Shown piece after piece: positions 2,314 through 6,474 of a stretch of DNA of 64,000 nt; position 1 is the first letter of the stretch, and each line of letters begins with the position of its first letter. The stretch spans positions 1 to 64,000 of IMG/VR virus record IMGVR_UViG_3300021375_000017. The stretch is one strand, 5' to 3'. The notes beneath the pieces are model-generated. The model was not told the origin of the DNA. It saw only the letters and a program-made list of their open reading frames with translations, and did no database searches. The translations under genes and the position numbers were made by a program. Source of the stretch: a virus.

Positions 2314-2652
2314 ATGAAAGACTTCAAAGATTTTATAAAGGAGTCGGTCACTATTCATGGTGACTTCAATGGAACACTTAATGTAGGTGGTGATAATTCT
2401 GCTTCTCCAGAACAACAGGTGGAAGAGAACTATCAATATCTTGCAGACTTTGTTTGGATGGGTAGTATTTACAGAGTACGGTTAGAACAGGTTGACTCAG
2501 TAAGACTTCCAACTAATCAAGAGTTGGCAGAACAACTGCAAAGTGAATATCCTGGTGCAATTGTTCAAAGGGTATATCCAGTAGAACAAAAACCAACAGT
2601 GAAATTTGGTGATATTAAAAGATATCATCCTGGTAAATTAGATTGGGTATAG
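2314..2652 (+). CDS. hypothetical protein with YPGAxVQR module
   Basis: The ATG at 2314 follows the upstream TGA by one base and gives MKDFKDFIKE, an N-terminus repeated in cyanophage accessory virion proteins, so I prefer it to the more upstream start at 2269, which would overlap the previous gene by 44 bases. The 112-residue product holds a module (FVWMGSIYRVRL ... SEYPGAIVQRVYP) that resembles FSWKGRYMLIKL ... KIYPGALVQRYDM in the preceding gene, so the two genes share a duplicated domain. Function is unknown. The position among head and packaging genes suggests a virion component. Confidence 0.7.
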   Translation: MKDFKDFIKESVTIHGDFNGTLNVGGDNSASPEQQVEENYQYLADFVWMGSIYRVRLEQVDSVRLPTNQELAEQLQSEYPGAIVQRVYPVEQKPTVKFGDIKRYHPGKLDWV

Positions 2653-2655
2653 ATT

Positions 2656-3582
2656 ATGGCTATTTGGAATTCTGGAATAGGTACATTTCTTAAACAAGAG
2701 ACTACCTTGTTTGAAGTGATGGGGATTGCATCAAGTGATGGTCAATATATTTCTACTGATAATAGATTTCCCGTAGATGCTAATATATCAGGAATCTCTT
2801 CAGATACAGTTATCTCCATTGGCAATAGTATTACGGTAAATCAAGGAACTTCACCTTGGGTTGTATCACCCATACCCCAAATTTCTTTACCTCCAGGATA
2901 CGGACAAATCCACAAGTTTGGTGCTGTTCCTGAAATGAGTCAAAATACTAATGGAACGATTTGGGATGAGAATGACACAAATTATCCTTGGGATACAATT
3001 TCTGCAGGCAGTCAACTTGAAGTTCGAGTTGTAGAGCCAAATAATGAAAATAGTACTAGTACTGACCTTGATGGAGATACTGTAGAGATACAAGGACTTG
3101 ATGTAAATTACAATGTCATTACAGAGACTGTAACTATATCTGGATTCTCAGCAACTACTACTAATACATTTTACAGAGTGTATAGAGCGATCTATGCAAA
3201 CACTGCTGATATTGCAAACAGTAAGCGTATTCTAATAAGAGTATCTACCACCACTGTTGCAAAAATATTAGAAAATATAGGACAGACATTGATGTCTGTA
3301 TATACTGTTCCTGCAGGTAAAACTGGTTCTATAATGAGATTAGATGTAACTGCACAAGGAACAGCAACAGGTAGTTTTAAACTGTATGTTCGTGAAGGTG
3401 GTACAGGGAATTTTGTTGTGAAGCATATCGCAGAAGTAAATGGTGTTGGTGGTCCATATCAACTTACTTATCCAATTCCTCAGTCATTCCCAGAAAAAAC
3501 AGATATTGATGCGAGAATGCATACATTATCAAATAATGGTAGATATACCTGCACTTTTGATATTTTACTTACGGATAATTAA
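2656..3582 (+). CDS. hypothetical virion protein (beta-rich)
   Basis: A 308-residue protein with no signal peptide or catalytic motif. Its composition (many Thr, Ser, Val and Ile, and alternating polar/hydrophobic stretches such as VTISGFSATTTNTFYRVYRA) suggests a beta-sandwich structural protein, and Pro-rich turns occur around residues 70-85. It begins three bases after the preceding stop and ends just before the terminase gene, so it is probably co-transcribed with late genes. A decoration or fibre-associated role is possible, but I do not recognise a named family. Confidence 0.65.
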   Translation: MAIWNSGIGTFLKQETTLFEVMGIASSDGQYISTDNRFPVDANISGISSDTVISIGNSITVNQGTSPWVVSPIPQISLPPGYGQIHKFGAVPEMSQNTNGTIWDENDTNYPWDTISAGSQLEVRVVEPNNENSTSTDLDGDTVEIQGLDVNYNVITETVTISGFSATTTNTFYRVYRAIYANTADIANSKRILIRVSTTTVAKILENIGQTLMSVYTVPAGKTGSIMRLDVTAQGTATGSFKLYVREGGTGNFVVKHIAEVNGVGGPYQLTYPIPQSFPEKTDIDARMHTLSNNGRYTCTFDILLTDN

Positions 3583-3584
3583 TT

Positions 3585-4466
3585 ATGAGTAATGTTGACA
3601 TATATTTGGGTAATCCAAATCTCAAGAAAGCTAATACAGCCATTGAGTTTACCCAAGATAACATTGAAGAATATATTAAGTGTAAAGAAGACCCGGTTTA
3701 TTTTGCAAAGAACTATGTTCAGATTGTGACTCTAGACCATGGTCTTCAACCCTTTAAGTTGTATGACTTTCAGGAAAAACTAGTAAAGAACTTTCACGAA
3801 AAGAGATTTAATATCTGTAAGATGCCACGTCAGACTGGAAAGTCTACTACTGTAGTATCTTTTCTATTACATTATGCCATCTTCAATGATAGTGTCAATA
3901 TTGGTATTCTTGCAAACAAAGCATCCACGGCAAGAGAACTTCTTGGAAGGTTACAGATTGCTTATGAGAACCTACCTAAGTGGATGCAACAAGGGATTCT
4001 AGCATGGAACAAAGGTAGTTTGGAACTAGAGAATGGTAGTAAGATATTAGCAGCATCTACGTCTGCTTCTGCTGTTCGAGGTATGTCATTTAACATCCTC
4101 TTCCTTGACGAATTTGCATTCGTTCCAAACCATGTTGCAGACTCATTCTTTGCATCTGTTTATCCTACGATTACTTCTGGTAAATCTACAAAGGTAATTA
4201 TTGTTTCTACCCCACACGGTATGAATCACTTCTACCGTATGTGGCATGATGCGGAAAGAGGATTCAATGACTACACCCCAACAGATGTTCATTGGTCTCA
4301 AGTACCTGGTAGAGATGAAGTCTGGAAAGAACAGACTATTAAGAACACATCAGAACAACAGTTCAAAGTTGAGTTTGAGTGCGTTGGAGGTAATACATTG
4401 GTAGAAGTTGAGAAAGATGATATTATCAGTGAGATGAGGATAGAGGATTTATACAATACAATGTGA
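3585..4466 (+). CDS. 17: terminase large subunit (gp17), N-terminal half with N-intein
   Basis: This 293-residue ORF encodes the ATPase domain of the DNA-packaging motor plus a split-intein N-fragment. Visible motifs are the adenine-binding/Walker A segment MPRQTGKSTT (about residues 81-90), Walker B ILFLDEFAF (about 171-179) and the coupling motif STPHG (about 206-210). Extein residues 1-265 end at FKVEFE; Cys266 (codon 4380-4382) starts an intein N-fragment that closes with a stop at 4464-4466. The nuclease domain is encoded separately at 5060-6244. Neither half alone is a full terminase: a functional motor would require trans-splicing. Joined length is about 556 residues, normal for cyanophage gp17. 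The frame and sequence quality show no sign of a simple frameshift. Confidence 0.93.
   Translation: MSNVDIYLGNPNLKKANTAIEFTQDNIEEYIKCKEDPVYFAKNYVQIVTLDHGLQPFKLYDFQEKLVKNFHEKRFNICKMPRQTGKSTTVVSFLLHYAIFNDSVNIGILANKASTARELLGRLQIAYENLPKWMQQGILAWNKGSLELENGSKILAASTSASAVRGMSFNILFLDEFAFVPNHVADSFFASVYPTITSGKSTKVIIVSTPHGMNHFYRMWHDAERGFNDYTPTDVHWSQVPGRDEVWKEQTIKNTSEQQFKVEFECVGGNTLVEVEKDDIISEMRIEDLYNTM
4380..4463 (+). other. split intein N-fragment in TerL
   Basis: Twenty-eight residues from Cys (block A: CVGGNTLVEVEKDD) to the stop. The extein junction VEFE/CVGG and the short N-fragment match the architecture I recall for the atypical AceL-TerL intein of an Antarctic Ace Lake phage terminase (25-residue N-fragment, same junction). 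The partner fragment is at 5060-5368. Identification from memory of that family is strong, but no alignment was run. Confidence 0.92.
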
Positions 4467-4477
4467 GTTTCTTGGAT

Positions 4478-4485
4478 TATAAATA
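4478..4485 (+). promoter_or_regulatory. T4-like late promoter (TATAAATA) inside the split terminase locus
   Basis: An exact TATAAATA lies 12 bp downstream of the N-half stop and 12 bp upstream of the GIY-YIG ATG at 4498. It would let the endonuclease and the terminase C-half be transcribed late and independently of the N-half. Confidence 0.6.
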
Positions 4486-4497
4486 AAAATAAAAGTT

Positions 4498-5067
4498 ATG
4501 TATTATATTTACTTATTGAGAGATGATTATGGTGATGTCAAATATGTTGGTCAAACACAACAGATTGATGTTAGGAAAAGAGACCACAAAAGATTAAAAC
4601 CACCACATACATTTGAGATTTTATATGAAAATCTTAAAGTGTCTGATGCCAAGATGTTGGAAATAGAAAATATAGATAAGTATGATACATATAGAAATGG
4701 ATGGAATAAATCCTCTGGTGGGGAAGGATTTGATGATTATGAAAGAAAGGGTATTGGGGGAGTAAAGAAAGGAAATGTGCCTTGGAATAAAGGTAAAAAG
4801 GGATGTTTTAGTGAAGAAACTATCCAAAAGTTTAGTAATACAAGAAAAGGTATTGCCTGGAGTAGAAAACTTACTGACAAACAAATCACACAAATAAGAA
4901 ACTTGTATCAAGAACAACCACATGTTGATGGTGTTGGAGATGTAGCAAAAAATGGAAGAAAAATGTCTTATATTCAAGCATTTTGTAAGAAATACTGTAG
5001 TGATTATAATATAACACCACAAGGAATGAAACGTATTATATTAAAGGAGTGTTGGGCAAATGTATAA
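4498..5067 (+). CDS. GIY-YIG homing endonuclease between TerL halves
   Basis: A 189-residue protein opening with YYIYLLRD...VKYVGQT, the two beta-strands of a GIY-YIG nuclease (YIY for GIY, YVG for YIG), then a basic helix with catalytic Arg candidates (RKRDHKR), and WNKSSGGEGFDD. The C-terminal half contains KGNVPWNKGKKG and KFSNTRKGIAW, resembling NUMOD3-type DNA-binding repeats, and a helix-turn-helix-like end. It sits exactly between the two intein-bearing terminase halves and overlaps the C-half start by 8 bases. The likely role is homing: cutting phage genomes that lack the insertion at the terminase locus. It is preceded by its own late promoter. Confidence 0.88.
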   Translation: MYYIYLLRDDYGDVKYVGQTQQIDVRKRDHKRLKPPHTFEILYENLKVSDAKMLEIENIDKYDTYRNGWNKSSGGEGFDDYERKGIGGVKKGNVPWNKGKKGCFSEETIQKFSNTRKGIAWSRKLTDKQITQIRNLYQEQPHVDGVGDVAKNGRKMSYIQAFCKKYCSDYNITPQGMKRIILKECWANV

Positions 5068-5368
5068 AATAAACAACAATATAAAAGTAAAGACACCAAC
5101 TGGATTTCAATCATTTAGTGGAATACAGAAAGTTTTCAAACCATTTTATCATTGGATTATTTTTGATGATGGAAGTGAGATAAAATGTTCTGATAATCAT
5201 TCATTTGGGAGTGAGAAGATAAAGGCATCTTCTCTAAAACTTGATGACATTATTCAAGGAAAAAAAGTTGTATATAATGAAATAGTTGAGGAAGGAATAT
5301 ACTTATATGATTTATTGGATGTAGGGGAAGAAAACCTATACATTACCAATAAAATAGTTTCACATAAT
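5060..5368 (+). other. split intein C-fragment in TerL
   Basis: One hundred and three residues. Block B is EIKCSDNHSFG (His preceded at -3 by Ser), block F is ENLYITNKIV, and block G is the terminal SHN followed by Cys+1. It resembles my recollection of the AceL-TerL C-fragment, which also begins with an Asn-rich MxxxNxNNIK and ends ENLYITNxxVSHN before CEFL. All residues needed for trans-splicing appear present: Cys1 (other fragment), block B His, penultimate His, Asn and Cys+1. Confidence 0.92.
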
Positions 5369-6244
5369 TGTGAGTTCCTAGGTTCTGTTGATACACTCAT
5401 TGCGCCATCAAAACTTAAAACATTAGTCTATGAGAATCCTATTCAGAGAAATGCTGGATTAGATGTCTTTGAAACAGTCAAAGAGAATCATGATTATATT
5501 ATGACTGTTGACGTTGCCAGAGGAGTTGGTGGAGACTACTCTGCATTTGTTGTTATTGATATTACCACATTCCCACATAGATTGGTCGCAAAGTATAGGG
5601 ATAATGAAATCAAACCAATGTTATTTCCAAGTGTCATCTATGAAGTAGCAAAGAATTATAATGAAGCATTTATACTCTGTGAGGTCAATGACGTTGGAGA
5701 CCAGGTGGCTAGTATTCTTCAATATGACCTGGAGTATCAAAACTTGTTAATGTGCTCTATGAGAGGTAGAGCAGGTCAGATTGTTGGTCAAGGATTCTCT
5801 GGTAAGAAGACACAACTTGGTGTCAAGATGTCCAAAACTGTAAAGAAAGTTGGTTCTCTCAATCTTAAAACAATGATTGAAGAGGATAAACTCATTCTCT
5901 GGGATTATGAGATTATTTCAGAACTGACTACATTCATTCAGAAGAACAATTCCTTTGAAGCAGAAGAAGGATGTAATGATGACCTTGCAATGTGTCTGGT
6001 AATCTATGCATGGATGGTCGCACAGGATTATTTTAAAGAACTAACTGATCAGGATGTCAGAAAGAGATTATATGAAGAACAGAAAAACCAGATTGAACAG
6101 GACATGGCTCCATTTGGTTTCTTAGATGATGGTTTGGGTGAAGACAATTTTGTAGATGGTGATGGAGACAGATGGTACACACAAAACAATAAAATGGATG
6201 AATATGGAAACACTGCTGGTGGTTGGGAACTCTGGAATTACTGA
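5060..6244 (+). CDS. 17: terminase large subunit (gp17), C-terminal half with C-intein
   Basis: A 394-residue ORF: residues 1-103 are the split-intein C-fragment, residues 104-394 the terminase nuclease domain starting with Cys+1 (CEFLGSVDTL). The RNase H-like nuclease shows acidic residues in TVDVARGVGGDYSAF (about 146-160), LCEVNDVGDQ (about 208-217) and CNDDLAM (about 330-336), the usual metal-binding positions. The protein would cut concatemeric DNA during headful packaging after joining to the ATPase half. Start: ATG 5060 inside the end of the GIY-YIG gene, preceded by AAGGAG a dozen bases upstream. It ends with TGATG overlapping the next gene. Confidence 0.93.
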   Translation: MYKINNNIKVKTPTGFQSFSGIQKVFKPFYHWIIFDDGSEIKCSDNHSFGSEKIKASSLKLDDIIQGKKVVYNEIVEEGIYLYDLLDVGEENLYITNKIVSHNCEFLGSVDTLIAPSKLKTLVYENPIQRNAGLDVFETVKENHDYIMTVDVARGVGGDYSAFVVIDITTFPHRLVAKYRDNEIKPMLFPSVIYEVAKNYNEAFILCEVNDVGDQVASILQYDLEYQNLLMCSMRGRAGQIVGQGFSGKKTQLGVKMSKTVKKVGSLNLKTMIEEDKLILWDYEIISELTTFIQKNNSFEAEEGCNDDLAMCLVIYAWMVAQDYFKELTDQDVRKRLYEEQKNQIEQDMAPFGFLDDGLGEDNFVDGDGDRWYTQNNKMDEYGNTAGGWELWNY

Positions 6245-6474
6245 TGGATTTAGATGGTCAGATAAAACTTGGACACTTACTTCTGAACGATAGGAAGTGT
6301 AGAACTTGTGGAGAGACAAAGAACTTGATAGAAGGTTTTTATAGGACAAGAAAAGATAGAGGGCCTGTCGCATCTTCTTATTCTTACGAATGTAAAGAGT
6401 GTACTGTTAGAAGAGTTGTACAGAATAGAAAGAAAATGACTCCATTTGTTGATTGGAATTATCCAGATTGGTGA
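6244..6474 (+). CDS. small zinc-finger protein (HNH-like fragment)
   Basis: The start at 6244 overlaps the terminase stop (TGATG), which favours it over the GTG-like start 21 bases upstream. The 76-residue product has two CxxC pairs, CRTCGETK and CKEC, about 30 residues apart, with aromatic residues between, forming a zinc-ribbon or treble-clef-like knuckle like that of small HNH nucleases. No catalytic HNH histidine pair is obvious, so it may be only a DNA- or protein-binding zinc finger. Its position between gp17 and gp18 suggests co-expression with packaging and tail genes. Confidence 0.65.
   Translation: MDLDGQIKLGHLLLNDRKCRTCGETKNLIEGFYRTRKDRGPVASSYSYECKECTVRRVVQNRKKMTPFVDWNYPDW

Follow-up and report, generated by a model that had tools for sequence, protein, structure and literature searches.

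When a split intein and a free-standing homing endonuclease gene together divide a phage gene in two, does the whole insert travel as a unit, and what might keep the nuclease in check? The question is raised by a 64,000-nucleotide stretch of viral DNA (positions 1 to 64,000 of IMG/VR record IMGVR_UViG_3300021375_000017, hereafter the window), in which the gene for the large terminase subunit (TerL; 3585-6244) is interrupted by an insert of 989 base pairs (bp) at 4380-5368. The insert consists of a 28-residue N-terminal intein fragment (IntN), a GIY-YIG endonuclease gene and a 103-residue C-terminal intein fragment (IntC), all on the plus strand, as are the other features of the locus described below. 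A near-copy of the sequence that follows the insertion point stands directly upstream of the late promoter of the nuclease gene. Taken jointly, the observations make it likely, in our view, that the insert is a mobile split-intein cassette with copy-based autorepression of its nuclease; that TerL is trans-spliced, that the GIY-YIG enzyme homes by cleaving the empty site and that the copy is an operator are steps that we infer.

A terminase gene in three reading frames

The first open reading frame (ORF; 3585-4466, 293 residues) comprises the 265-residue TerL N-extein (3585-4379), which holds the ATPase part of the protein (Pfam Terminase_6N, E=2e-22), and IntN (CVGGNTLVEVEKDDIISEMRIEDLYNTM), which opens with Cys and terminates at a TGA stop codon (4380-4466). 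The second (4498-5067), beginning 31 bp past this stop, encodes the 189-residue GIY-YIG protein, and its final 8 bases are overlapped by the start codon of the third (5060-6244, 394 residues), for which AAGGAG at 5044-5049, within the end of the GIY-YIG gene, is the likely ribosome-binding site. The third ORF encodes IntC, ending in SHN (5060-5368), and continues as the TerL C-extein from CEFLG (5369-6244), which contains the nuclease part of the terminase (Pfam Terminase_6C, E=4e-15) and shares 82% identity with gp17 of cyanophage S-SM2. An earlier note on this DNA had described such a locus by reading the letters; its three ORFs, the fragment sizes of 28 and 103 residues and the junctions (VEFE/C ... 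SHN/CEFLG) all proved exact on re-reading, the intervening GIY-YIG gene is real by its Pfam match, and a PHROGs search likewise returned terminase large subunit and homing endonuclease. Scans of IMG/VR yielded 108 distinct loci (L numbers below denote individual loci, from these and further scans) after removal of duplicates, a few outgroups included, and most of the approximately 100 loci have the same fractured layout of two ORFs, each with an intein half, and an endonuclease ORF between them. Because this architecture recurs in about 100 other viral contigs, the locus is neither a chance reading nor an assembly error.

IntC is identical at 81 of 104 positions to the "Consensus engineered intein CatC" of PDB entry 6dsl (E=4e-53), and IntN matches CatN of the same entry (E=9e-4). 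Since the AceL-TerL and GOS-TerL inteins were the basis for the design of the Cat consensus (PMC11766414), the AceL-TerL type proposed in the earlier note is borne out, AceL being compared here only through that consensus, and by its sequence the intein of the window is a new natural member of the known AceL/GOS-TerL split-intein family. The residues of class 1 inteins at the splice junctions (Cys1, penultimate His, terminal Asn and Cys+1) are all present in the window, and the terminal Asn and Cys+1 are invariant in an alignment of related loci. The intein is split after its first helix, close to the N-terminus, which is the location of the natural S2 split site (PMC13014065); in a model of a natural fused relative, the split point lies past the helix formed by residues 25-29, and this relative has a predicted intein fold for which the best match in a structure search was Cat (E=1e-11). 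IntN lengths are 25 residues in AceL, 30 in Cat and 37 in GOS (PMC11766414). The window thus resembles these systems in host gene, in IntN of about 25-37 and IntC of about 103-115 residues and in Cys+1, and it adds to them a natural 28 + 103 residue pair in the context of its nuclease gene, promoter and flanking genes, together with relatives that are devoid of the nuclease and one fused natural form. TerL would be made as two proteins, N-extein-IntN and IntC-C-extein, that would then be joined by class 1 trans-splicing.

As for the nuclease, the GIY-YIG domain was matched in all 12 aligned homologues, and Y5, Y16, R26, H30, E55 and N70, which we take to be the equivalents of the I-TevI catalytic residues, are invariant in the alignment. 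In a structure model (mean pLDDT, the predicted local distance difference test, of 72) the GIY-YIG fold is followed by a linker of low confidence and then by a helical C-terminal part; NUMOD3 is matched in the linker, in the window protein with a score under the curated cut-off. A Foldseek search returned two domains with a probability of 1.00 and E-values above 0.001, the N-domain of UvrC and the catalytic domain of I-TevI. The protein would be expected to recognise and cut an intein-less terminase gene around E/CEFLG, and repair of the cut gene would copy the entire 989-bp insert.

A copy of the insertion junction before the nuclease promoter

At the end of IntN, positions 4462-4485 of the window read TGTGAGTTTCTTGG-AT-TATAAATA. 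The first 14 nucleotides (4462-4475) overlap the IntN stop codon and are identical at 12 of 14 positions to the start of the C-extein, TGTGAGTTCCTAGG (5369-5382), and the last eight (4478-4485) are a T4-type late promoter preceding the GIY-YIG gene. The promoter had been noticed before, and it is conserved with its preceding block in 37 distinct loci; the copy formed no part of the earlier note and was found in the present analysis. Over these 37 loci, conservation amounts to 1.74 bits per column in the copy and 1.98 bits in the promoter, most of the block lying beyond the IntN stop, and the promoter is followed by a spacer of variable length, 5 to 21 nucleotides, before the nuclease ATG. When each copy is compared with its own TerL gene (about 3000 positions), the register at the exact insertion point is unbeaten in 34 of the 37 loci and the unique best in 27. 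Synonymous differences among the exteins of individual loci are not mirrored in the copy, so it is not maintained by gene conversion. The 24-nucleotide block occurs as 111 stretches in IMG/VR, and all 71 of those newly fetched belong to this locus (67 complete, 4 ending at contig ends). By itself the TATAAATA motif is weak (9 in the window, 4 expected), and no copy block was seen upstream of its other occurrences there.

In the td intron of phage T4, a site identical at 15 of 20 positions to the homing site overlaps the late promoter of the intron nuclease I-TevI; the enzyme binds it with an affinity equal to that for the homing site, cuts it about 100-fold less and represses transcription, and similar sites are found upstream of I-TevII and I-TevIII (PMC2988022). 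Because the anatomy of the present locus resembles that of I-TevI, we propose that the copy is an operator for autorepression. The GIY-YIG gene would be transcribed from its own late promoter, and with a copy of its recognition sequence directly upstream of that promoter the enzyme would most likely bind there and repress its own synthesis; on balance, operator function of 4462-4475 appears a little more probable than its opposite. A further prediction drawn from the copy is that contacts of the nuclease with the junction lie on its C-extein side. Common to the two systems are a GIY-YIG enzyme, a late promoter of its own inside the mobile element and a sequence resembling the homing site at this promoter. 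They differ in that the element is here a split intein, removed by protein splicing, whereas td is an RNA intron; in that the copy (12 of 14 nucleotides) lies just upstream of TATAAATA, the putative operator here being known from sequence; and in RNA structure, since no stable hairpin was predicted at 4440-4530 over the nuclease start codon (z = +1.8), unlike in I-TevI. A search of the insert against RNA families gave no group I intron or other family at the gathering threshold.

A junction copy in a second nuclease family

A distantly related intein lineage splits TerL at the identical position in a different group of phages, and between its halves is encoded a nuclease that we assigned by eye, not by profile search, to the Vsr-like type (L185, L349-L358). 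Here the 15 nucleotides that span the junction (CAAGAATGTGAT/TGT) recur at 14-15 of 15 positions immediately 5' of the nuclease ATG in L349-L354 and L356, and in weaker form in L358 (13 of 15) and L357 (10 of 15). The junction is the unique best match among 3572 positions in eight of these nine loci. A junction copy at the gene start of two unrelated nucleases argues for a function.

Split inteins of the gp41-1 type, in loci retrieved with an N-fragment query (only the returned loci were used), are also accompanied by a GIY-YIG gene. In these loci (L359-L406) the TATAAATA promoter of that gene is flanked by the two arms of a conserved inverted repeat (GTAAGTTATAC / GTATAACTTAC), an arrangement reminiscent of the way in which hairpins control homing nucleases of T4; the GIY-YIG gene is absent from the gp41-1 relatives L362 and L364-L366.

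Movement of the insert, loss of the nuclease and a probable re-fusion

Between the window and L265 and L268 the insert is identical at 987 of 989 positions, and the 120-nucleotide TerL flanks are diverged (98 of 120 identical on the left, 82 of 120 on the right), with identity running past the insert ends for only 11 and 14 nucleotides. This comparison indicates a recent transfer, between diverged phages, of the cassette from Cys1 through the final Asn codon. Such near-exact transfer is what homing would predict; it lends indirect support to cleavage of intein-less terminase DNA but does not of itself identify the cutting enzyme. In a separate case, L163 equals the window across the TerL N-part, intein and nuclease and is only 76% identical in the C-extein, being either a natural recombinant or a chimeric contig.

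Both intein halves could be read in 91 loci, of which 83 have the GIY-YIG gene, seven are split without it and one is fused. On trees, the nuclease was lost with the intein still split in at least 4-5 independent events; the nuclease-less L085, L156 and L159 are separated by 0.002 changes per site from the nuclease-bearing L155, and a remnant of the nuclease gene, its tail, persists in the nuclease-less L133 (L050 is the same contig). The fused allele (L011 = L082 = L190, a single contig) is best read, as far as its sequence goes, as a re-fusion by deletion, because it nests among split alleles with 97% intein DNA identity to the window.

Several loci depart from the common layout in other ways. 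In the nuclease-less split allele L218 (553-1461 and 1439 onward) the two terminase ORFs overlap out of frame with each other, and IntN has 37 residues. In Vibrio phage VP-1 (L145; 837-3053 and 2896-4179) the IntN at the same terminase site continues in frame into a GIY-YIG domain, IntC and the TerL C-part form a separate ORF, and Walker A holds a contiguous intein. The terminase pieces of Campylobacter phage CP81 (L146 and L149) are located about 22 kilobases apart on opposite strands, and the second opens with an IntC-like segment at another protein site. The terminase of L056 (ORFs 985-1359, 1304-2350, 2343-3314, 3315-3911 and 3889-5070), L053 and L101 is in three pieces, with an extra split intein and a Vsr-like nuclease gene in the Walker A motif besides the TerL split intein and GIY-YIG gene, so that two trans-splicing reactions would be required per terminase. 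A candidate junction copy at the Walker A split intein of L053 and L056 was rejected, the match lying inside IntC coding DNA and probably arising by chance. A second, contiguous Walker A intein accompanies the split intein in L016, L058, L107, L135, L136, L178, L179, L187, L199, L201, L208, L216 and one more locus; these contiguous Walker A inteins are class-3-like, with A, S or M at position 1 and the motifs DHLW, LCG and PTHN.

The host of the insert in the window is a T4-like marine phage: the source record, a part of which the window covers, has 92,001 bases and is that of a T4-like myovirus, and the window also encodes a T4 portal, a family B DNA polymerase and a ribonucleotide reductase. 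A small ORF with paired CxxC motifs (6223-6474) adjoins the 3' end of the terminase gene, and an ORF in the corresponding place in S-SM2 is annotated as "endonuclease VII".

Alternative explanations

The chief alternative grants that the cassette is mobile but takes the copy for a non-functional relic of the entry of the endonuclease gene into the intein. Such a relic would account for L196, where the copy continues the IntN frame as E-CEFLGL followed by a stop, as expected of a former extein, and for L024, L095, L217 and L251, which retain longer copies that include the last N-extein codon. A relic would hardly be expected, however, to be conserved like coding DNA when it lies mostly past the IntN stop and the GIY-YIG proteins themselves are about 60% identical; nor does the copy behave like the spacer behind the promoter, which varies in both length and sequence, or track the synonymous differences in the extein of each locus, and the Vsr-like family possesses its own copy. 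We therefore regard the relic as rather unlikely. The copy might instead be a weak self-cutting site that releases or mobilises the nuclease gene alone and has no part in repression. A review raises the possibility that certain homing nucleases cleave their own sequence at low frequency (PMC10448857), and several nuclease-less alleles have one deletion end in or beside the copy, but any deletion that spares both intein ORFs must end there, and stable conservation in 83 of 91 loci is a poor fit to frequent self-cutting, which renders this explanation improbable. Marginally less probable still is that the conserved block is an extended late-promoter element or another expression signal whose likeness to the extein is coincidental. 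The block does abut TATAAATA and its match is not significant at a single locus; against this, the other TATAAATA sites of the window are without it, the match begins exactly at the insertion point with the unbeaten register described above, and the Vsr-like family copies its own, different junction. Least probable of all, and very nearly negligible, is that the terminase goes unspliced, with its halves acting as separate subunits and the intein fragments as dead remnants. Separate function is conceivable, since Pfam assigns the ATPase domain to the N-terminal half and the nuclease domain to the C-terminal half, but the junction His, Asn and Cys+1 and the block B His show little or no variation even in a lineage whose IntC is 34-37% identical, both intein halves remain open after loss of the nuclease gene, and splicing is established for the related inteins AceL, GOS and Cat (PMC11766414).

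Five observations weigh against a mobile cassette with an operator copy as we have proposed it. In a shuffle test on the single locus the 14-nucleotide match is not significant (49 of 100 shuffles), so this test was not counted as evidence and was replaced by tests of registration and conservation. The 37 loci are related by descent, the match is one-sided, covering in most loci only the C-extein side, and the fused allele is known from one contig only. Finally, no junction copy was seen in the gp41-1 split-intein loci that have a GIY-YIG gene.

Relation to known systems and implications

The intein and the fractured arrangement are already known. Dassa 2009 is said to give an example of fractured genes with a split intein and an intervening homing endonuclease. 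A gene fractured by a split intein with an intervening GIY-YIG gene has been published for AceL NrdHF (PMC7891396), which is like the present locus in having two gene halves, each with an intein half, and a free-standing GIY-YIG gene between them; the intein there is of class 3 with the usual split site, whereas here it is of class 1 with an N-terminal split site. Our literature search, whose scope left Dassa 2009 outside and priority thus uncertain, found no description for inteins of a target-site copy at the promoter of a split-intein nuclease, nor of the recurrence of such a copy in a second nuclease family or a natural re-fused allele; in the same literature, control of a nuclease by a copy of its target site has so far been described only for T4 intron nucleases.

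A generalization can be offered tentatively, with slightly less than even confidence: homing endonucleases that split inteins may gain promoters of their own and regulate themselves through a copy of the target site in at least two unrelated families (GIY-YIG and Vsr-like), the copies marking nuclease binding sites, and the intein may shift between split with nuclease, split without it and fused, the last seen once. Split inteins are central tools of protein engineering, and their origin and upkeep have been argued from few examples. A single locus family here provides a natural series in which the nuclease is present, the nuclease is lost or the halves are re-fused, along with near-exact transfer of the insert between phages that have diverged, and a sequence from which both the target and the regulation of the nuclease can be predicted. 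If the proposal is true, about 100 natural intein pairs and one natural fused version are available for testing, and the principle of I-TevI autorepression would extend from RNA introns to protein introns.
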